In this document: positions 39,506 to 64,000 of the stretch, piece after piece
Position numbering within the stretch: the first letter of the stretch is position 1
Layout: each line of letters begins with the position of its first letter
Assembly: GCA_036265815.1 (NCBI GenBank)
Contig: DATAOI010000036.1
Coordinates: 1-64,000 of the forward strand
DNA length: 64,000 nucleotides
Direction: 5' to 3'
DNA from: Gemmatimonadales bacterium
GTDB taxonomy: Bacteria; Gemmatimonadota; Gemmatimonadetes; Gemmatimonadales; GWC2-71-9
Program-made: the position numbers and the translations under genes
Notes under the pieces: model-generated
What the model was told of the DNA's origin: nothing
Database searches by the model: none
Seen by the model: the letters and a program-made list of their open reading frames with translations, nothing else

Positions 39506-41104
39506 TCAGGGTCCGGTGCCGTCCAGAATCCGACAATTCTCCTCGCTGCGGCCGGGAGGCAACAGGTCTTCTGGCCACGTGCCCCAGAGAGACCAGTGAT
39601 TGCATCCATCCGTCCAGCTCTGGGGATCGGCCCCGGGAACGATGGGGCCTTTGAGCGTCGTCGCGTAGAAGTGACCGGCCTCGTCCCGGTACGTGAGCCG
39701 GGCCGTTGCCTCCCCTCCACTGGAGCGAAGCCCCTCCGTGTAAGAATAGGGCCAGACCGCCGCAACATAGTGCCCGAACCGCTCGGGAAAGAGCGGAACA
39801 TCCTTGCCCGGGGGAACGCTCAGGAACCGTGCGGTGAGATTCCACCAGGAGTTCCCATAGGTGAGGCCTGGAATCGTGAGCATCTGGAAGCCGACGATCT
39901 CGAGCCCGCTCTCTCCCGGGGCATCCGCGACGACGAGCTGGGGGGCATAGTTCCAAAAGGCCGAACCCAACGGGTTCTCGAACTCGATGACCGTGAAGGA
40001 GCGCACGACGATGCGCGGCTGGGAATCCGGGGCGGCAAACGTCAGTGTCAGGGGCGCCGACGTTCCGCTGTTTCCGGACTCGTCGGCTACCGTCATTCGG
40101 ACGGTGTAGGTGCCGGGGTGGGGCTGCCGCAGCAAGTGAAAGTTGGAAGCCGAGGGGAGGATGTACCTCATGTCGAGATACCCCGCTGAGCCCCAGTTCG
40201 ACCGCCCGAAGCGCACCCGGAGTGGCGCATCGCCGCTTCGGTCATCGAACTCCCACTCGATATCGGCGATCTCGCGATCCTCCGTGATGGCTGCCCGGAA
40301 ACTGGGGTACTCGAAGGCTTCGGAGTCGCCGGCCACCGGCCTCAGGATGGTCACCAGGGGCGCCGTGACGTCCGGCGGCAGCGTGTCGGTGGTGAACCTG
40401 CTCGTCAGGAGCGCGCCGAGTGCCTGGCCATCGCGATCCCGGGCCGCGGTGCCGACCTGCAGCACGTAGGTCGTGCCCACTGCGAGCGGATCTGCCGGGA
40501 CAAAGGTGACCTGGAGGATGTCCCCCGTGTTGGCCGGAATCACCACAGTGCCGGGCACCGGGCTGCCACCGTCGGTCAGGGTCACCGCGTCGATCAGGCT
40601 GGCACTGTCCATCGGCTCGCTGAAGACCACGGTGATCGCCGGATTGAGCGACACGTCTCGCTTGTTGCTGGGCGGGTTGGTCCGCACCACGCTAGGTGAG
40701 ACGTTCAGATTGACGAGGATGCGGTATGATGACGAGAGGGCGGTCTCGCTGCGGACCAGGACACCCAGGGTATCGCCCGCGGCCGCAGTCACCCCGACCG
40801 GATCGAAGCCGCCATCCACCACGGGGACGGTGACGCCACTGCTGGTGCGCGGATCGGCGATGGTCGCCGCGGTGGCCCCGGGGATCTTCCCGGGCGACAG
40901 GGAGACGTAGACCAGGGACGTCCCGGCGGTCGCCGACGTGGACGAGAGCCTCGCGCGGGAGGCCGACATGGCAGGGCCCGGCACCGGATTCGACACCACG
41001 AACGGCGTCGGCGGAAGCAAACCTCCGGAATCTCGGGGCCCCGCTCCGTCCGAGCAGCCGAGGGTCATGCCAGCCAGCGCAATTGCCACGACGACCCGCA
41101 TCAT
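39506..41104 (-). CDS. Lipoprotein with bacterial Ig-like (Big_5) domain, paralogue 2
   Basis: 532 residues. A lipoprotein signal peptide ends at the lipobox TLGC near residue 17-18, followed by a Pro-rich spacer. The region around NPPSNKRDVSLNPAITVVFS through FTTDTLPPD is a Big_5/SbsA Ig-like domain; a second Ig-like stretch (about 255-355) and a C-terminal domain with Trp and Cys follow. It shares its full layout with the gene upstream, most strongly in the first 250 residues. ATG 41104 overlaps the neighbour's stop (ATGA). It is likely anchored on the outer surface; the ligand is unknown. Confidence 0.85.
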   Translation of the reverse strand: MMRVVVAIALAGMTLGCSDGAGPRDSGGLLPPTPFVVSNPVPGPAMSASRARLSSTSATAGTSLVYVSLSPGKIPGATAATIADPRTSSGVTVPVVDGGFDPVGVTAAAGDTLGVLVRSETALSSSYRILVNLNVSPSVVRTNPPSNKRDVSLNPAITVVFSEPMDSASLIDAVTLTDGGSPVPGTVVIPANTGDILQVTFVPADPLAVGTTYVLQVGTAARDRDGQALGALLTSRFTTDTLPPDVTAPLVTILRPVAGDSEAFEYPSFRAAITEDREIADIEWEFDDRSGDAPLRVRFGRSNWGSAGYLDMRYILPSASNFHLLRQPHPGTYTVRMTVADESGNSGTSAPLTLTFAAPDSQPRIVVRSFTVIEFENPLGSAFWNYAPQLVVADAPGESGLEIVGFQMLTIPGLTYGNSWWNLTARFLSVPPGKDVPLFPERFGHYVAAVWPYSYTEGLRSSGGEATARLTYRDEAGHFYATTLKGPIVPGADPQSWTDGCNHWSLWGTWPEDLLPPGRSEENCRILDGTGP

Positions 41105-42660
41105 CGGGAATCCTCGCTCCAGCCGCAGCCCGACAGGTCGCCTGGCTCCATGCCTTCCCATGACCAGTGATAGGCGCAGGCGCCCGTGAACGTCGTAGGC
41201 CAGTCTCCCGGCACGACGTCGCCCTTGACCGTCATCGTGTAGAAGTGACCGATCTCATCACGGTACGTGAGACGGGCAGTCGCTTCGCCTCCGCTCGAGC
41301 GACCCCCGGTGCCGAATGCTGGTTCGGGTTCGCCGTACCAGTCCTTGGGAAAGAGCGGGGTATCCTGGCCCGGCGGAACGCTCAGGAGGAAGGCGGTGAG
41401 TTTCCAGGGCGTGGACCAGGATGGTCGGGTCAATCCGGGAATCGTGAGCATCTCGAAGCCGACGATCCTGAGTCCGCTCTGCCCCGGAGCATCCGCGACG
41501 ACGAGCTGCGGGGTGTAGATCCACCCGGCCCAATTCGGATCATAGAACTCCACGACCGAGAACGAGCGCACCACGAGCCGCGGCTGTGAATCCGGAGCCA
41601 CAAACGTCATTGTGAATGGTGCCGACGATCCGATGTTCCCCGCGAAGTCCATCGCCGTCAATCGAACGTTGTAGATACCGGGGTGAAGCGACAAGTTGTT
41701 GTCGCTGTGGTCCGCAAGGACGTACCAATTGTCGAGGTGGTCAGACCAGTCGTTCGACCCCGAGTTCCACCCATAGGTGGGATTGCCGCTTCCGTCATCG
41801 AGCTCCCAGGTGACATCGACGATCTTGCGATCGTCATCGATCACTGCCCGGAAGGCAGGGTAATCGACAGCTTCCGAATCGATCCCTACCGGAGGGACAA
41901 TTCTGACCAGGGGCGCGGTGACATCCGGCGCCAGCGAATCGGTGGTAAACTCGGCGGTCACCGGCGCAGTGAGCCCCTGCCCATCCCGATCTTGAGCCGT
42001 GGTCCCGACCTGGAGCACGTAGGTGGTGAGTGGGGCCAGCGGGGCCGCCGGGATGAGGGTGACCTGCAGGATGTCGCCGCCGTTCGGCGGAATCACCACG
42101 GCTCCCGGCACCGGGTTGAGACCATCGGTCAAACTCAGTGCCCCGATCACACTCGCGCTGTCCATCGGTTCGCTGAAGACCACCGTGATCGCCGGATTGA
42201 GCGACACGTCGCGCTTGTTGTTTGGCGGGTTGGTCCGCACCACAGTGGGTGAGACGTTCAGGTTGACCAGAATCCGGTACGTTGCCGAGAGGGCAGGCCC
42301 GCTGTGGATCAGAACGTCCAGGGTATCCCCGGCGGCCGCGGTCACCCCGACTGGATCGAAGCCGCCGCTCACCACCGGGACGGTCGCGCCGCTGTTGATC
42401 CGGGGATTGACGATGGTCGCGAGACTGGCCCCAGGAATCTTCCCGGGTGCGAGGGAGACGTAGGCCAGGGATGTCCCGGCGGTCGCCGAGGTGGACGCCG
42501 AGAGTCTCGCGCCCGAGGCCGACACGGCAGGGCCCGGCACTGGATTCGACACCACGAACGGCGTCGGCGGCAGCGGCGTACCGCTGTCGGAGAGTCCCTC
42601 GCCCTCAGAGCAGGCGAGGGTCAGGCCGGCTAGTGCAGTGCCCAGGACGACGAATCTCAT
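41101..42660 (-). CDS. Lipoprotein with bacterial Ig-like (Big_5) domain, paralogue 1
   Basis: 519 residues. Lipobox LTLAC at about 13-17; then PPTPFVVSNPVPGPAVSAS, the Big_5-type domain with NPPNNKRDVSLNPAITVVFS, a variable second half and a common C-terminal motif RSSGGEATARLTYRDEIGHF. The next gene is a clear tandem copy. The ATG overlaps the stop of the beta-helix lipoprotein (ATGA). The second-half divergence between the copies suggests different ligands. No enzymatic motif is visible. Confidence 0.85.
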   Translation of the reverse strand: MRFVVLGTALAGLTLACSEGEGLSDSGTPLPPTPFVVSNPVPGPAVSASGARLSASTSATAGTSLAYVSLAPGKIPGASLATIVNPRINSGATVPVVSGGFDPVGVTAAAGDTLDVLIHSGPALSATYRILVNLNVSPTVVRTNPPNNKRDVSLNPAITVVFSEPMDSASVIGALSLTDGLNPVPGAVVIPPNGGDILQVTLIPAAPLAPLTTYVLQVGTTAQDRDGQGLTAPVTAEFTTDSLAPDVTAPLVRIVPPVGIDSEAVDYPAFRAVIDDDRKIVDVTWELDDGSGNPTYGWNSGSNDWSDHLDNWYVLADHSDNNLSLHPGIYNVRLTAMDFAGNIGSSAPFTMTFVAPDSQPRLVVRSFSVVEFYDPNWAGWIYTPQLVVADAPGQSGLRIVGFEMLTIPGLTRPSWSTPWKLTAFLLSVPPGQDTPLFPKDWYGEPEPAFGTGGRSSGGEATARLTYRDEIGHFYTMTVKGDVVPGDWPTTFTGACAYHWSWEGMEPGDLSGCGWSEDSR

Positions 42661-44081
42661 AATTGCCTCGCGGGGCAGCTCTCCGGGTCATAGAACGCGC
42701 GAGTTCTGTGCCCGATCTCGCGTCCGTTCACCAGCAGCGTGTTCCCGAATCCCGGCGGGTTGCTGAACCACGCGTCGCTGAATCGCCAGTCTCCGCTGAG
42801 CGTCAGCTTGTACGTCGAATTGAGCAGGTAAGGATCTCCGCCGGCGCCCAGATTGGTGTAGTGTCGGCTGAACCCCACGAGCAGATCCGCCTGGCAGCTT
42901 TCCCTCACGACGTTGCCGCTGGTCGTCACCTCGATGTCACCCCGGAGCCTCGTGTCGGGCTGGGGGAACAGGGCGTCGATCATCAGTCCGAAGTTGTTGT
43001 TCACCAGCAGATTGTCGCGAATCTTGATGTGGCTCGAACCGGGGACATTCGGCGCACCGAGGCCGACAGCCCCAACCCGGATGCCGGCGCTGATCGGCTG
43101 CTGCCGGACGTTGCGAACCTCGTTGTCGATGATATCGACGAAGACCTTGGAGAAACCGGGGCCGTCCGGCTCGGCGTCGATGGCGGGGCTGGTAAAGATC
43201 CCGTGCGTGCCCCCGGCCACAATCTTGTTGCCTTCGGCACGGTAAACGCCGGGCCCCGCGAGACACATGGCGCACTGCCCTCCCTCGCTGATGTGGTTCG
43301 TTTCGACGATGGCGTTGCTTCCGCGGAGGTCTATCGTCTCGAAGAAGCCCTCGAGCCGGTTGCCCCGAATGGTGAGACCTGTCACCGTGAACGAGATCAC
43401 GCCGGTCCCCGCGGTCTCCGTGCCCGGCGCCTGCCCCGACTGAAAGGCGAAGCCCTGCACCGTGAGCCCATTGCCGTCGCCATACGCCGCGAAGATCGCG
43501 GGGAAGCCCACCAGATCCGACAGCGGCTCGATTGGTGCGAGCGTCGTCGCCCGACCAGTCGTGCTGGTACCCGTGGCTCGTCCACTGGCATCCAGGCGCA
43601 TCACCAGCGCACCCCGGAGCGTGATGGCCGGCACGTCCACCTCGAACGGGAAACGCTCGAGACTCTCGTCGGTGTTGGCCAGGTCATCGGTTCCCCGATA
43701 CACCCCGGCGGCAACGGTGATGGTGATGCGACACGCGGCCGAGGCCAGCTCGCCCCGTGCCTTCCGGCCGTCCCGCGCCACGGTGAGAGCGTCTCCGATC
43801 CGGCGGAAGTGCGCGCCGTCCTTCGGCTGATCGCTCGCGTGGGATACCGCGAGGCTGGTGAGGTAGTCGCCGTGACCGAGATGAGTCGCGAGCTGGGACG
43901 GGGAGACGGTGATGATCCCGCCGCTGTGGCACACGGACAGCCGATCGGAGGACGTCTCGGTCAGAGACACCTTGGCCTGGTCCGGCGCGGTCGGCGCGTC
44001 GTCGGAGCACGAGGCAAGCAAAGCGATGATGCTCAGGCCGCCGAGCAGAGCGGCCGACGAACGTTGCAGGCGAGGACGCAT
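42657..44081 (-). CDS. Lipoprotein with parallel beta-helix repeats
   Basis: 474 residues. A signal peptide with lipobox LLASC (about 21-25) is followed by a short N-terminal motif HSGGIITVSPSQLATHLGHG seen in secreted proteins of related phyla. From about 170 the chain has beta-helix-like repeats (GLTIRGNRLEG, NAIVETNHISEGG, YRAEGNKIVAGG, HIKIRDNLLVNNN), the pattern of pectate-lyase-type right-handed helices. No catalytic set is evident. It leads the three-gene lipoprotein operon and was probably coexpressed with the two Ig-like lipoproteins through four-base overlaps. Confidence 0.83.
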   Translation of the reverse strand: MRPRLQRSSAALLGGLSIIALLASCSDDAPTAPDQAKVSLTETSSDRLSVCHSGGIITVSPSQLATHLGHGDYLTSLAVSHASDQPKDGAHFRRIGDALTVARDGRKARGELASAACRITITVAAGVYRGTDDLANTDESLERFPFEVDVPAITLRGALVMRLDASGRATGTSTTGRATTLAPIEPLSDLVGFPAIFAAYGDGNGLTVQGFAFQSGQAPGTETAGTGVISFTVTGLTIRGNRLEGFFETIDLRGSNAIVETNHISEGGQCAMCLAGPGVYRAEGNKIVAGGTHGIFTSPAIDAEPDGPGFSKVFVDIIDNEVRNVRQQPISAGIRVGAVGLGAPNVPGSSHIKIRDNLLVNNNFGLMIDALFPQPDTRLRGDIEVTTSGNVVRESCQADLLVGFSRHYTNLGAGGDPYLLNSTYKLTLSGDWRFSDAWFSNPPGFGNTLLVNGREIGHRTRAFYDPESCPARQL

Positions 44082-44218: not shown

Positions 44219-47200
44219 TCAGCGCCCGCCGATCAGCTCGAATCCGGCCCAGTAATAGGGGCTCGCCGTCGCCGGGACCGACAACAGCGCACGCTGCGCC
44301 GCGGCCAGCGCCCGGCCCGGATCTGACCCTATCACGTATCCCTGGTAAAACCGCTCCATGAGCGCGGCGCTGGCTCGGTCCTGGACCGGCCAGAGCGTCG
44401 CCATCACCCGCGCCGTCCCGGCCGAGAGGAACGCGCGCGCCAGCCCCACCCAGTCGTCGCCGGCCGGCACGTCGGTGAGCGCGCCGGAGCCAAGTCCGGT
44501 CTGGCAGGCCGACAGCACCACCAGATCGGCCGCGAGCCGCAGACCGAAGACCTCGTGGACCTCGAGCCGGCCGTCGTCGGCTCCCTCGGGTGCCAGTGCG
44601 ACAAAGGAGAACAGCGGGTTCTGCTTGTTGAGCACGCCGTAGGTCGCGAGATGAATGACCCGGCGGGTGGGTGCTTCGCGCAGGAAGGCGGCCTCTGTCG
44701 CGGCATTCCCGACGACGACTCGCGCCTCCTTCCCTCCGAGCCGCCCGATGGCCGCCACTTCCTGGCGGGAGGCGGGCAGGGCGTCCGGTCGGGGTGCAAA
44801 GGCGAGGAGGCCGCTGGTGGCCTTCCCCGGGGCGCGGGCACCGAGGGCGAGCCACACGGATGCCGAAGGCGCCGCCATGAGCTGGAATCGCTCTATCAGG
44901 AAGTGTCCGTGGCCGTCCAGCAGCGCGGCGAACGGCAGGTAGTGCAGCTCGGCGTGGGGCACGATGACGAGTCGGGTCTTGCCGTCGAGGAGCCCGGAGG
45001 CCTCGATCGGTGCGACGAGATCGCGATAGAGCTGGCGCAGCGGAGCGCGCCAGAGCGAATCGAGACCCGGCGACCCCCGCGGCTGCAACGATCCTCGCAC
45101 GAAGTCGATCAAGCCGGCGAGCTCAGGGCGGCCCACCCCGAGCTGCAAGGCCACCGTGGTGTCGCGACTGATGACGAAAGCCAGCGAGCTCGCGTCGCTC
45201 ACCAGGTATTCGATCAAGACCCCGTCCGCCGGAAGCTGCCGGGCGACGTCGCGCCAGGTCGCGGTCTCACGCGACAGGAGCGCCGCGTGCCGCGGGGCCC
45301 GCTCGCGAATCTCCAGCAGCAGCTCGGCATAGGATTCCTGCGCGCTGAGCAGCGCTTCGCGTGTGACCGCACCCCCGCGTGACACGTCGGGGCCGCGGAA
45401 CGGCTGGTTGCCCGCGGGAGCTCCCTCCATCAGGCTGGTGAGCTCGTCGATGCGGTGGCGGAGATCCTGCTCCCTCACCACCAGTGCCATCGCCGTGTCC
45501 CGAGGCACCGCGACCCGCCCTTGCGCCAGAAGCTCCCGCATCTCGTTCGCCCGGATACGCTCGCTCACCTCGAACGCGGCAGCGACACGCCCCCTGGCGC
45601 GCTCCAGCAGCGCGAGCTGGACGTACACGTCCCACTTATCGGTGAGAAACCCCGAGCGTCGCTCCGCCAGCGTGAGCGAGCGGCCGGTGCGCTCGATGGC
45701 GGCGATGCCGGCTCGCAGCTCCTGAGCCGCCTCGTCCGTCGCGCCCCGGTCGCGCAGGGTCGTGCCCAAACCCGCGTGCAGCCGCCAGGTCACCTCGGGT
45801 GCCACCCGATCGCCCACGCCGGCAATCGCTGCGCGAAAGAGCGACTCGGCCGCGGCGGGGAAGCCAGCAGCCGCCTCGAGCGAGGCCCGCTTGCCCACCG
45901 CCTCGGCGGCCGCGACCGGATCGCCCAGCCGCGCCAGCTGCCTGCCCGCGCGGGCGAGCTGTTGCCGCGCACCGGTGGTATCACCCCGACGGAGGGAGAG
46001 ATCGCCGAGCACCATGCGGGTCAGCGACGCGGCGCGGCGGTTTCCGGTGGCGAGCTCGATGCGGAGCGCCCGATTGAGCAGGGGCTCCGCGGCCGCCGGC
46101 TTGTCAAGGTCGAGCAGCAGCATCCCCCGGCCCTCCTGCGCCTCGGCTTCGCCCACCCGATCACCGGCCCGCCGGAAGAGCAGCTCCGCGCTGGCATAGA
46201 GCCGCTCGGCCTCCTGCCGGGTGTTGAGCTGGGCCGCCAGATCGGCGCGGGCGAGCGCGATGCCCGCCTGAACGCCGGCCTCCGCGCCGGTGGAGTCGGC
46301 GAGACGCCGCGCCTCCCGCAATTCGTCCAGCGCACTCTGCAGCTCACCCTCGGCGGCGAGCGCACCGGCCATCTCTTGTCGCACCGCGAAGGCGTCCGCC
46401 ACGGGGCCGGTACGGTCGTAGATGGCGAGCGCCGCCTGCAGATCGATCCGAGCCGCGGGATAGTCTCCCCGACGCAACTCGAGCTCTCCCAGCCCCCGCA
46501 GGGCGTCGGCCATGTCGGCCCACTGCTTCCGTTCGCGCCAGGTCGCCAACGCGTCGCGGTAGAGGGTCGCGCCACGGGCAAAATCACCGGCCAGGCTGGC
46601 GAGCCCGGCAAGGTTGACCAGGTTGGTCGCGGCGACCTCCGCGCGGCCGTCCCGCCGATTGATCGCCAGCGCAGCCTCGAGCTGGCGGCGGGCCTCGTCG
46701 AGGTCGCCGGCGTCACGCGCCAGCCCGGCGAGATTGTTGTAATCGGAGGCGAGGCCGCGGGAATCGCCGATGCGGGTCCGCAACGCGATCGCCCGCGCGT
46801 AGGACTGGCGGGCACCCTCAACGTCGTCCCGGCTCTCGCTCACCCCCGCCAGCTCGGAGAGGGCATTGGCCTCGACCCGCATGTCGCCCAGCGCCACGGC
46901 CAGCAGCCGGGAACGCTCGAGATAGACCGCGGCGCTATCCGGGCTGGCATCACGGGAAAGGCCGGCGCCGATGTTTCCCAATGTCGCCGCCATCGAGGCG
47001 CTGTCGTCGATGGCGGCGGCCCCAGCCAGGGCACGCCGCCAGATCCCGATCGCAGCTGCCGCGCCATCGCGACCGAACGCCGTGACGCCTGCCCGGCGCA
47101 GGCTGTCGGCCCGGACCTTGGCGGCGCGGCGCGGCGTGGGCCAGCCGGTGAAGCGGGCCACCTCACGGACCAGGAACTCATCATGCCAGGCGGCGGCGTA

Positions 47201-48214
47201 GGCCGCGGCCAGCCGGCGGGCGAGCACGAGCTCTGCTTCACGCACCGCCGGCTGGCCGTGGACCGAGCTCGCGAGCGTCTCGGTCAGCGCCTCACGCACC
47301 TCGAGCGGCCGCGCCCGAACCTCGAGCACCAGGGCGGAGTCCGACAGGGTCGGCGCGAGGCGACGGAGTGAGTCCCGCGGCGGCGGCAGGGTGATGCGGG
47401 CGGGCAGAGATGCCGAGGGGCGGAGCGTATCGTTGGACTCCGCCGCCGGCCTGACCTGGAACTCGATCAGGTCCGACGAGGTCCAGCGATCCCACCCATT
47501 GCGGGCCTCGACCCTCCACAGATACAACCGTCCCGGAGCGAGCACGACCGAATCGGGAAGCGCCATCACCGTGTCCGCCACCTGGGTCTCGTACAGCGAT
47601 TTCCCCGAGGCGTCGAACAGCCTCACGCGATAGCGCTCCGCACCGGGCACCGCGGTCCAGCTGAGCTGGGTGGCTGCCGGGACCTCACCGATCGGCGACA
47701 GGGGCGTCGGCGCCGCCGAGGCCGTGATGGTAGGCCCGCGGTGCAGATCGGTGTCATGACCCCCGCGGTCCGGCCGGACCAGGACCAGCACCGCTGCCGC
47801 GGCGGCGATGAGGCCGGCCCCGGCGAGAAACCTCCGTCGTGCTCCCGGCCGATCGCGCAGCCGCTCGAGCGACCGCACCTCGGCCGCCACGCCGGGATCC
47901 GCCAGCACCTCGATCAGCGAAGCGAGCTGGCGGCGACAGCGTCCGCACCCGGCAAGATGGAGGATGTCAGCCTCCCGCTCGCTGGGGAGGGCGACACCAT
48001 CGACGAATCGGGCCAGCGCGATCTCGTCCAGATCGCCTGCGAGGTCGGTTCCCACTACAGCCTGAATCCCCTGCACCACGCGGCGGAGGTTGGCCACCCG
48101 GTCCCGGCACGACGCGCACCCGCCCAGGTGTCGAGCGGTGACGCCATCCGGCACGGAGTCATCGGCCAGCGCGAACAGGAGGATTTCCGCTTCCGAGGGA
48201 CAGGTCAGTGGCAC
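44219..48214 (-). CDS. Double anti-sigma zinc finger, membrane, TPR and CHAT protein
   Basis: 1331 residues. Two zf-HC2-type motifs sit near the N-terminus: His29-x3-Cys33-x2-Cys36 and His86-x3-Cys90-x2-Cys93. A membrane segment at about 129-146 separates them from an Ig/Fn3-like domain (about 165-255), long TPR-type repeats (about 440-900) and a C-terminal CHAT caspase-like domain (about 1010-1331). The CHAT cysteine is Cys1237 in VLSACQTG, but the usual catalytic His in HLATHG is Tyr1192. The start is GTG 48214, chosen because an upstream extension runs into the sigma gene in another frame. It follows the ECF sigma gene by 85 bases and is its probable anti-sigma factor. Confidence 0.87.
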   Translation of the reverse strand: MPLTCPSEAEILLFALADDSVPDGVTARHLGGCASCRDRVANLRRVVQGIQAVVGTDLAGDLDEIALARFVDGVALPSEREADILHLAGCGRCRRQLASLIEVLADPGVAAEVRSLERLRDRPGARRRFLAGAGLIAAAAAVLVLVRPDRGGHDTDLHRGPTITASAAPTPLSPIGEVPAATQLSWTAVPGAERYRVRLFDASGKSLYETQVADTVMALPDSVVLAPGRLYLWRVEARNGWDRWTSSDLIEFQVRPAAESNDTLRPSASLPARITLPPPRDSLRRLAPTLSDSALVLEVRARPLEVREALTETLASSVHGQPAVREAELVLARRLAAAYAAAWHDEFLVREVARFTGWPTPRRAAKVRADSLRRAGVTAFGRDGAAAAIGIWRRALAGAAAIDDSASMAATLGNIGAGLSRDASPDSAAVYLERSRLLAVALGDMRVEANALSELAGVSESRDDVEGARQSYARAIALRTRIGDSRGLASDYNNLAGLARDAGDLDEARRQLEAALAINRRDGRAEVAATNLVNLAGLASLAGDFARGATLYRDALATWRERKQWADMADALRGLGELELRRGDYPAARIDLQAALAIYDRTGPVADAFAVRQEMAGALAAEGELQSALDELREARRLADSTGAEAGVQAGIALARADLAAQLNTRQEAERLYASAELLFRRAGDRVGEAEAQEGRGMLLLDLDKPAAAEPLLNRALRIELATGNRRAASLTRMVLGDLSLRRGDTTGARQQLARAGRQLARLGDPVAAAEAVGKRASLEAAAGFPAAAESLFRAAIAGVGDRVAPEVTWRLHAGLGTTLRDRGATDEAAQELRAGIAAIERTGRSLTLAERRSGFLTDKWDVYVQLALLERARGRVAAAFEVSERIRANEMRELLAQGRVAVPRDTAMALVVREQDLRHRIDELTSLMEGAPAGNQPFRGPDVSRGGAVTREALLSAQESYAELLLEIRERAPRHAALLSRETATWRDVARQLPADGVLIEYLVSDASSLAFVISRDTTVALQLGVGRPELAGLIDFVRGSLQPRGSPGLDSLWRAPLRQLYRDLVAPIEASGLLDGKTRLVIVPHAELHYLPFAALLDGHGHFLIERFQLMAAPSASVWLALGARAPGKATSGLLAFAPRPDALPASRQEVAAIGRLGGKEARVVVGNAATEAAFLREAPTRRVIHLATYGVLNKQNPLFSFVALAPEGADDGRLEVHEVFGLRLAADLVVLSACQTGLGSGALTDVPAGDDWVGLARAFLSAGTARVMATLWPVQDRASAALMERFYQGYVIGSDPGRALAAAQRALLSVPATASPYYWAGFELIGGR

Positions 48215-48299
48215 GAGCGGCCGTCCGGAGAAGTGGCGTGGCCGGGATTGGCCACACGGTTGCGTGGTAGGGTACGGACCGAACTGCCGGAATTGCTCA

Positions 48300-49070
48300 T
48301 CAGAGGTCGCCGGGACCGATGCCCTCGAGCTCGAGCCGGGTCCGCAGCGCAGCGAGCGCGCGATACACCCGGTTGTAGACGGTCTTGGGGCCGGGCCAGC
48401 CAACCGCACGGGCGACGTCGGCAGCGGAAAGTCGTTCGACGACGAACAACTCCACGGCGAGCCGTACGTCCGGCGGGTGCGATGCCAGCGCCTCGGCAAG
48501 CCTTTGGACCGCCTCCGCCGTCTCCACCGGGTCCAGCTCGGGCACGGCTACCTCGATGGCCGACGGGTCGGACACCGGGTGCCGCGACGGAGCGCTGTCG
48601 GGGCACGGCGCGGTCCGAGCAAGGGAACGGACCTCCTGGAGAAATTCATGAAACGGCATCGACGATCCGGTGCGAGCGCGGATCAGCTCGTAGGCCTCGA
48701 CGTGCGAATGGCCCCCGATGCAGACGGCCGCGTAGATCTCCTGCTGCAGCGGGGAGAGGGTCGACGGCACGGTGAGGCGGCGACGACCATCGCGCTGGCG
48801 GAGCCAGTCGATGGTGAGGTTGCGTACCACGATGACCAGCCAGGTGGCGACGCTGGCGGGTCGGGCGGATCGATCGGAGTAGCGCTTGAGGCGAGCGAAA
48901 TCGTTGGCGGAGAGAGCCTGACAGGCCATGGAGAACACGTCCATGACATCGTCATGGTCCGGGACCAGGCGCCTGATGGTCGCAAGCATCAGCCGCCGAT
49001 AGCGGTCGGCGAACAGGTCCCAGGCGGCTTGAGGGTCGCCCGCGTCGAACTTGGCAAGCCAAGGCTCCAC
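48300..49070 (-). CDS. ECF-type RNA polymerase sigma factor
   Basis: 256 residues. Region 2 is visible from about 15-95 (DVFSMACQALSANDF, then VATWLVIVVRNLTIDWLRQR), and region 4 at about 190-250 has the helix-turn-helix LSAADVARAVGWPGPKTVYNRVYRAL. The linker between them is longer than usual, about 90 residues. It should direct RNA polymerase to alternative promoters when freed from the zinc-finger protein encoded next. I do not see an autoregulated promoter upstream with confidence. Confidence 0.85.
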   Translation of the reverse strand: MEPWLAKFDAGDPQAAWDLFADRYRRLMLATIRRLVPDHDDVMDVFSMACQALSANDFARLKRYSDRSARPASVATWLVIVVRNLTIDWLRQRDGRRRLTVPSTLSPLQQEIYAAVCIGGHSHVEAYELIRARTGSSMPFHEFLQEVRSLARTAPCPDSAPSRHPVSDPSAIEVAVPELDPVETAEAVQRLAEALASHPPDVRLAVELFVVERLSAADVARAVGWPGPKTVYNRVYRALAALRTRLELEGIGPGDL

Positions 49071-62141: not shown

Positions 62142-64000
62142 CTATCTCGCTCCTGCCAGCTGGAATGCCGCCCAGTAGCGGGGCTCAGCGAACTCCCTGT
62201 GCCGCCGTACCTGCGCCTGGGCACGCCGGAGCGCCTCAGCCTTGCCAGCCTGGGGCTCGGCCAGCCACTGGCGGTAGAAGGACTCCATCAGCAAAGCTGT
62301 GGCCTCGTCGGGCACGTTCCAGAGACTCACTAGAACGCTCCGGGCGTGCTTGGCGAGGAAAGCGCGTTGCAGGCCCACCGTGCCTTCCGCCTCCTTCAGA
62401 TTGCCGAGCCCCGTCTGGCAGGCGCTGAGCACGATCAGGTCGGCGGAGAGTGTGGGAAGCTGGTCCAGCACTTCGCCCACGGTGAGCAGGCCGTCGTCCG
62501 CCGGGGCGGGCTTGGCCTCCGGGCCGGGCGCCAGGGCCACGAACGACGCTCGCGCCAGCGCGTCGGTCTCGTAGGCGAAGCCGTGTGTCTCCAGATGCAC
62601 CACCGGTGCCTGCGCGATGCGGCTTCGGACGGCGCGCTCGGTGGCATCCCCGCCGATGAGTACCTCGGCCCCGAGCTGCGCGGCGACGTCCCGGCTCGAC
62701 CGCTCTGCCCCCGGGAGCGGAGACGGCGTGAACTCGACATCACAGAAGCGCACCTTGGGCATACGAGGATTTCCCACTACGAGCGCGCGGCGGAGCGCCG
62801 CCACCCGGGCCACCCCAGTGTCGAGGCCAGGGAGAGCGTCAGCTTCCCGCAACGTCGACAGGGAGGGCGCGTAACGAAGGGCATATCGCAGCCCCAAAGC
62901 ATCGTCAGATGCGCCGAGCGGTAGGGCGGCGAACGGAACCAGGTTGAGGGGCCCATGAGGTAGCACCAACAGCTCACCTGCCGGGGGCAGAAGGGCACGC
63001 GCGGCGGGTGGCAACAGGAGCTCGGACAGGGCACGAACTGCATCCCGGCCCGCTGCAGCGCTCGGCGTCGGCGCCCGCTCACAACGATCATCCGGCGCGA
63101 GAGCCGCACGGGCATCCCGCACGCGGGCCGCGAGCGTGTCTCGCGACACCGGCACCCGCAGGACCGACACCTCGCCCGGCGGGCGTACGACCCAGAGAAC
63201 GAGTGTATCGCGGGTGACGAGATAGACCAGGGCCGCTGCCGCCCCGCTGCGTTCGATCGTCGTGCCCCAGCCGCGGCCTTCGGAAGCGAGATCTCGGCCG
63301 GCTGGAAGCTCCGGCTCCCGCGCCGCGGCACCGCGCATCAGATCGAGGAGGGCGCGGGCCCGGCCCTTCTCGGCCGCGGCCAGCGCCGCCCACGCTGACG
63401 CGGGTGCACCGACCTCGTCGCCCCGGGCCAGCCACGCCAGCGCCCATTCCTCGTAGAGCCCGACGTCCTGCTCGGCGAAGCTGAGCCGGTCCGCATCTCC
63501 GCCCGATCGGCGACTTGTCTCACCGCGCAAAGCCGACGCCGAGTCGTAGTACGACGTTGCCACCCGGAGGTCCCGTCCCACCTTGCGGCGGTGAAAGGCG
63601 CTGGCGAGGTGGAAGAGGGTCTGCCCCGCGCGCGCGCCGTCGCCGGTTCGGTGGAGCAGAGCGAGTGCCGCGCGGTAGTTGGCGACCGCGCTATCCGACT
63701 GCCCGAGGGCCAGCTGGACCTGGCCCAGATCGTCGAGGCCCCAGCTCTGTCCGGTCAGATCCCCCACCTCCCGCTTGATGGCCAGCCCCTGCCGAACCGC
63801 CAGGAGGGCCGAGTCCAGCCGGCCCGACTCCGATTGCACCCTTCCCATGTTGATGAGGGTCAGGGCCGCGAAGGAACGCTGTCCGGCGGCGAGTGAGGTG
63901 GCAAGCGATCGGCGGAGATAGGTCAGGGAGGAATCGGGACGCCCCAGCAGGTCGAACGAGTACGCGATGTTGTTGAGCGTCGCCCCCTCGCCCGCGCGGT
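62142..64000 (-). CDS. TPR-CHAT protein (N-terminus outside the window)
   Basis: About 618 residues are visible; the open frame continues to the right edge. The first visible 170 or so are TPR-type repeats (LDDLGQVQLALGQSDSAVAN, then YRAALALLHRTGDG). A CHAT domain fills the C-terminal half: HLETHG carries the catalytic His and VLSACQTGLG the catalytic Cys, so this copy should be active, unlike that at 44219-48214. CHAT proteins are caspase-like cysteine proteases seen in conflict and cell-death systems. Convergent with the LVIVD-repeat gene. Confidence 0.85.
   Translation of the reverse strand, partial: RAGEGATLNNIAYSFDLLGRPDSSLTYLRRSLATSLAAGQRSFAALTLINMGRVQSESGRLDSALLAVRQGLAIKREVGDLTGQSWGLDDLGQVQLALGQSDSAVANYRAALALLHRTGDGARAGQTLFHLASAFHRRKVGRDLRVATSYYDSASALRGETSRRSGGDADRLSFAEQDVGLYEEWALAWLARGDEVGAPASAWAALAAAEKGRARALLDLMRGAAAREPELPAGRDLASEGRGWGTTIERSGAAAALVYLVTRDTLVLWVVRPPGEVSVLRVPVSRDTLAARVRDARAALAPDDRCERAPTPSAAAGRDAVRALSELLLPPAARALLPPAGELLVLPHGPLNLVPFAALPLGASDDALGLRYALRYAPSLSTLREADALPGLDTGVARVAALRRALVVGNPRMPKVRFCDVEFTPSPLPGAERSSRDVAAQLGAEVLIGGDATERAVRSRIAQAPVVHLETHGFAYETDALARASFVALAPGPEAKPAPADDGLLTVGEVLDQLPTLSADLIVLSACQTGLGNLKEAEGTVGLQRAFLAKHARSVLVSLWNVPDEATALLMESFYRQWLAEPQAGKAEALRRAQAQVRRHREFAEPRYWAAFQLAGAR

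Follow-up and report, generated by a model that had tools for sequence, protein, structure and literature searches.

Which protein controls the sigma factor at this locus, and does that control require cutting? The locus lies in a stretch of 64,000 nucleotides from a Gemmatimonadales bacterium (contig DATAOI010000036.1 of assembly GCA_036265815.1, positions 1 to 64,000; hereafter the window), in which a gene for an extracytoplasmic function (ECF) sigma factor is followed by one for a large protein that combines zinc fingers, a transmembrane segment, TPRs and a CHAT domain. We consider it probable that these genes form a sigma/anti-sigma cassette of the DdvS/DdvA kind, in which a membrane receptor with an outer pseudo-protease solenoid would gate the anti-sigma factor. 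The features concerned are:

48300-49070, minus strand: ECF-type sigma factor of 256 amino acids with a GTG start (Pfam and NCBIfam matches over cut-off)
44219-48214, minus strand: predicted fused membrane anti-sigma/FN3/TPR/CHAT protein of 1331 amino acids with a GTG start (open frame, coding score 369)
47933-48202, minus strand: its predicted cytoplasmic tandem zinc-finger anti-sigma part (alignment of 27 anti-sigma factors; profile match to 3hug, ChrR and DdvA)
47771-47833, minus strand: transmembrane segment, residues ~128-148, with an arginine-rich N-side (hydropathy and sequence)
47447-47704, minus strand: fibronectin type III (FN3)-like domain, residues 171-256 (AlphaFold pLDDT ~97; the best Foldseek PDB matches are FN3 domains)
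45521-47179, minus strand: TPR superhelix, residues ~346-898 (TPR_12, 82 bits; AlphaFold mean pLDDT 84, pTM 0.76)
44228-45046, minus strand: catalytically degenerate CHAT domain, residues 1057-1329 (PF12770, 213 bits, E 8e-63; alignment to solved TPR-CHAT)
44639-44641, minus strand: codon of Tyr1192 at the catalytic His position (HLATYG), where solved TPR-CHAT proteins have the His of 'CHG' in the alignment
44504-44506, minus strand: codon of Cys1237, the nucleophile position kept (LSACQT; alignment)

The sigma factor matches Sigma70_r2 and Sigma70_r4_2 above the Pfam cut-offs with no match for region 3, which places it in the ECF class, and TIGR02937 (sigma70-ECF) scores 56 bits on its reading frame against a cut-off of 42.9. 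The gene for the fused protein begins 85 nt past the sigma stop on the same strand. A preliminary description of this DNA, made from the letters alone, had reported this pair of genes, and it had also listed two HxxxCxxC motifs, a membrane segment, TPRs and a CHAT domain in the 1331-residue product; all of these were recovered here (H29/C33/C36 and H86/C90/C93 for the motifs). The further domain that it had called Ig-like is indeed present, although its type is FN3-like by Foldseek.

The first finger is complete in the window protein (C5/H29/C33/C36), and through it the protein has the HxxxCxxC motif with an upstream His/Cys ligand that characterizes zinc-binding anti-sigma factors; this finger is present in only some relatives, and the second (H86/C90/C93) is invariant in 27 of 27. 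Pfam zf-HC2 falls below threshold on the window protein (E 0.2), yet it matches 23 of the 27 sequences in the anti-sigma alignment, which includes separate-gene relatives. The profile built from this alignment matches the solved membrane anti-sigma factor 3hug_B (E 4e-8), DdvA (8rlz, 8rot), ChrR and RsiW; 3hug_B is RslA of Mycobacterium tuberculosis. The classical zinc anti-sigma factors 3hug, ChrR and RsiW have the HxxxCxxC domain in common with the window protein but no TPR-CHAT outer half. Given the conserved adjacency of the genes, the homology to solved zinc anti-sigma factors and the DdvS/DdvA precedent, the window protein looks like the membrane anti-sigma factor of the adjacent sigma factor.

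The C-terminal domain has the CHAT fold, by its profile match and by Foldseek matches to DdvA, separase and Csx29; the catalytic His-Cys dyad expected of a CHAT cysteine protease (clan CD), however, is incomplete. We assembled 150 distinct CHAT proteins with their neighbourhoods, essentially all the matches listed from 395 Gemmatimonadota genomes (the window contig is G000:C36 in this set, and L-numbers denote its loci), and built a tree from the 150 CHAT domains. The sigma-linked CHATs nearest the window form one group of 47 (SH-aLRT 95) that splits into a sister clade of 18 and a clade of 29 to which the window protein belongs (the window clade). All 29 members of the window clade keep the Cys, but 28 have Tyr, Phe, Ser or Ala at the His position; both residues are intact in 17 of the 18 sister-clade proteins.

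These counts bear on whether the CHAT domain acts as a site-1 protease, freeing the sigma factor by cleaving the anti-sigma factor, in cis or in a neighbour, when a signal arrives. A parallel is provided by Csx29, a TPR-CHAT protein that cleaves the sigma inhibitor Csx30 and thereby relieves the inhibition of CASP-sigma (PMC10028731), and the intact sister clade and the universally retained Cys of the window clade are both in keeping with such activity. The window protein, however, has Tyr for His, a residue lost throughout nearly all of its clade, and in Desulfonema ishimotonii Csx29 mutation of the dyad H615/C658 abolishes cleavage (PMC10028731), for which reasons we judge an active protease here to be quite improbable. 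The self-cleavage or CHAT-mediated cutting proposed in the preliminary description is therefore, as far as the residues tell, unlikely for the window protein, and CHAT-mediated cutting is possible in the sister clade; of the long sensor plus caspase-like domain seen in its outer part, the sensor-like module stands, but the catalytic His is missing. Retention of the Cys may leave some non-canonical chemistry possible. Csx29 in Craspase (type III-E CRISPR) resembles the window protein in that a TPR-CHAT unit is tied to an ECF sigma factor through an inhibitor, but it is an active His/Cys protease in an RNA-activated Cas7-11 complex, its inhibitor is a separate substrate and it has no membrane anchor.

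Variation at the dyad was also seen elsewhere in the set. L154 (G266:C49) is the lone window-clade member with His (LATHGVLNK), at a locus that is truncated upstream. L175 (G107:C42) has Cys replaced by Ala with His retained, a different kind of dead CHAT. The window itself holds a second TPR-CHAT gene at 62142-63998 on the minus strand, running past the window end, with an intact dyad (VHLETHG, LSACQTG) and belonging to a CHAT clade without a sigma link.

A sigma gene was sought upstream of each CHAT gene, on the same strand and within 3.5 kb, with only CHATs that had enough upstream DNA being judged. By this measure 22 of 24 assessable His-lost CHATs in Gemmatimonadota are preceded by a sigma gene, as is the window protein, versus 31 of 107 His-intact ones; in one further His-lost case (L065) the sigma gene is 4.2 kb away with Big_5 genes in between. 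The association of sigma and CHAT genes is far beyond chance, the Fisher value for His loss against sigma adjacency (p 1e-8) being indicative only because the proteins are related and kinship was uncorrected. Adjacency is thus the rule in the clade, which answers the objection, anticipated in the preliminary description, that homologues might never have the two genes side by side.

The typical cassette of the window clade has three genes, encoding the sigma factor, a membrane anti-sigma factor of ~200-270 amino acids (finger, transmembrane segment, FN3-like domain) and a TPR-CHAT protein of ~1070 amino acids, so the fusion first described holds for this genome but not for its relatives. A start could be assigned to the TPR-CHAT gene at 19 clade loci; at 14 of these the gene overlaps or directly adjoins that of the anti-sigma factor, typically by ATGA or GTGA, and in all 19 the separate TPR-CHAT protein has a hydrophobic, export-like N-terminus without a lipobox; in the sister clade a simple motif found a lipobox in 7 of 13. 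Because the separate forms carry export-like N-termini, the TPR-CHAT part belongs outside the cytoplasm, and the fusion, by placing it after the transmembrane segment, keeps it on that same outer side.

The fusion is the sole case among the 150 CHAT proteins and its sigma-linked relatives are separate genes, as would be expected had an assembly error or frameshift merged two genes; yet a single frame stays open across the whole gene, with coding signal along its full length, and examination of the junction in all frames gave no export signal, no stop/start overlap and no sign of a frameshift, and we hold an artefact to be very improbable indeed. In the locus registered as both L032 and L093 (QHVB01000001.1) the TPR-CHAT gene is frame-broken near its start, reflecting either an assembly error or a pseudogene. 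A GTDB-wide scan with the full 1331-residue protein returned a single true relative (L032) and two TPR-only matches.

The closest known system is DdvA of Myxococcus xanthus, which ranks first among the structural matches of the TPR-CHAT model (8RW5/8ROT, E 4e-16), ahead of separase and Csx29. The TM-score of the DdvA match is only 0.24 and the root-mean-square deviation is large, so the whole solenoids of the two proteins do not superpose; profile matches between them fall in the anti-sigma part and the CHAT domain. Like the window protein, DdvA (8ROT, 8RW5, 8RLZ) joins a zinc-finger anti-sigma part, a transmembrane segment, a long helical outer part and a C-terminal CHAT domain in one chain, and its partner DdvS is an ECF sigma factor as is the product of the gene adjoining the window protein. 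By contrast, the aligned CHAT of DdvA has both His (DLATHG) and Cys (AACEGG), the former being Tyr in the window protein, and DdvA has 991 amino acids and low sequence similarity to the window protein, which has a tandem finger and relatives that are separate genes. DdvS is active once DdvA is inactivated, and the signal for DdvA is given as unknown (PMC4374960). The building plan is therefore already known from DdvA, a solved transmembrane anti-sigma factor with CHAT that the preliminary description overlooked in stating that zinc-finger proteins of this kind normally end shortly beyond the membrane; the differences here lie in the phylum, in relatives with separate genes, in the loss of the catalytic His and in the lipoprotein that accompanies the cassette. 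The window fusion, being nested among separate-gene relatives, looks independent of that in DdvA and is probably derived. A literature search for CHAT together with anti-sigma gave only the Csx29 papers and a note on the ECF54 sigma group, which has CHAT and subtilase genes in its genetic context (PMC8999054), and found no paper for 8ROT; the ECF54 model member is from Geodermatophilus and its likeness to the window rests on gene context.

On the DdvS/DdvA-type reading, the cytoplasmic zinc-finger part would hold the ECF sigma factor, and the single transmembrane segment would cross the inner membrane with the FN3-like domain, TPR solenoid and CHAT domain lying outside the cytoplasm. With its catalytic His lost, the CHAT domain may act by binding instead of cutting, as a pseudo-protease, and the TPR/pseudo-CHAT unit might bind a ligand, a peptide or an envelope component, possibly the co-encoded Big_5 or beta-helix lipoproteins. 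Binding could then cause a conformational change, or expose the anti-sigma factor to the cell's own intramembrane proteolysis, and the sigma factor would be released to a regulon of its own; the arrangement fits signal-controlled release of the sigma factor. Site-2-type proteases (PF02163) are near universal, and this genome has candidates among its PF02163 matches, one at 209 bits. More tentatively, a lineage of Gemmatimonadota may have converted an exported TPR-CHAT protease to a receptor that no longer cuts and is dedicated to the control of an ECF sigma factor, with surface Big_5 lipoproteins of its own as ligand or effector, and in this genome have fused receptor and anti-sigma factor; we regard this as a fair conjecture that could well prove wrong.

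Several observations weigh against these proposals. Invariant retention of the Cys is unexpected in a site that is fully dead; the fusion occurs in one genome only; the second finger of the window protein has Asp61 as its fourth ligand where relatives have Cys or His; and the Big_5 lipoprotein could simply be an output gene, its role as a ligand being a guess.

CHAT domains are usually read as proteases, but in this clade the catalytic His is gone while fold, Cys and sigma link persist. Since the sister clade keeps both residues, closely related proteins allow a test of whether TPR-CHAT control of sigma factors needs proteolysis. That TPR-CHAT is a working component of an anti-sigma switch is argued both by the relatives with separate genes and by the one-chain forms of the window and DdvA. 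For DdvA, these proteins also supply many relatives for comparison, together with a candidate partner lipoprotein.

Three predicted lipoprotein genes follow the fused gene in close order:

42657-44081, minus strand: predicted lipoprotein with a right-handed beta-helix, the next gene in the likely operon (Beta_helix PF13229 over cut-off; lipobox LLASC)
41101-42660, minus strand: Big_5 lipoprotein, carrying the module that accompanies the window clade (Big_5, 65 bits; lipobox LTLAC)
39506-41161, minus strand: second Big_5 lipoprotein, 67% identical to the first (Big_5 match)

The module, of ~210 residues (an N-terminal part plus Big_5), lies downstream, in most cases immediately, in 21 of the 29 window-clade loci and in none of the 121 other CHAT loci, and the only two matches in this genome are both genes of the window locus. 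It occurs at 37 places in the 395 genomes, 32 of which adjoin cassette genes by position; when the remaining five were read directly, one Big_5 lipoprotein gene (L231, G104:C41) proved to be immediately preceded by what is left of a CHAT, its C-terminal end only, and four stood alone, two of these on contigs <6 kb. In L065, L066 and L088 the module comes after the anti-sigma gene. The Big_5 lipoprotein is a candidate for the ligand or the output of the switch.

An output role could extend further, to an ordinary anti-sigma factor with the TPR-CHAT protein and lipoproteins as co-regulated surface products of the sigma factor that lie outside the switch. Downstream of the sigma gene in L085, L088, L097 and L103 come other exported proteins or an anti-sigma gene, with no CHAT between, and the promoters point the same way to the extent that they do not require the cassette to form a feedback loop: sigma-70-like TTGACA-N16/17-TATA sites matching at least 10 of 12 positions were found in 7 of 22 sigma upstream regions, against 0.12 expected. 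These strong housekeeping-type promoters precede the sigma genes of L086, L087, L091, L096, L100, L101 and L104, so that there is no sign of ECF autoregulation in those seven loci; upstream of the window sigma gene the best such site scores just 8/12, with none strong. A dyad search of the sigma upstream regions for an autoregulated promoter of ECF type gave nothing above shuffles. The overlapping anti-sigma and TPR-CHAT genes, the window fusion and the second one-chain form, DdvA, argue instead for a physical complex, and we think a purely output role for TPR-CHAT rather unlikely.

The sigma factors of the window clade have a conserved extra central region, RSHVEAYEL, between regions 2 and 4 (23 homologues aligned), which the sister-clade sigma factors do not have; that it might be a second region 4 was rejected (hhalign probability 1.4%). 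A paralogous sigma factor elsewhere in this genome (L085, G000:C27:41657-42424) is 44% identical and is followed by a 149-residue zinc-finger protein and no CHAT. Among other relatives of the window sigma factor, that of L092 has genes for a zinc-finger protein and a subtilase behind it in place of the CHAT, and in L097 and L103 PD40 lipoproteins take the place of the CHAT after a related sigma factor.
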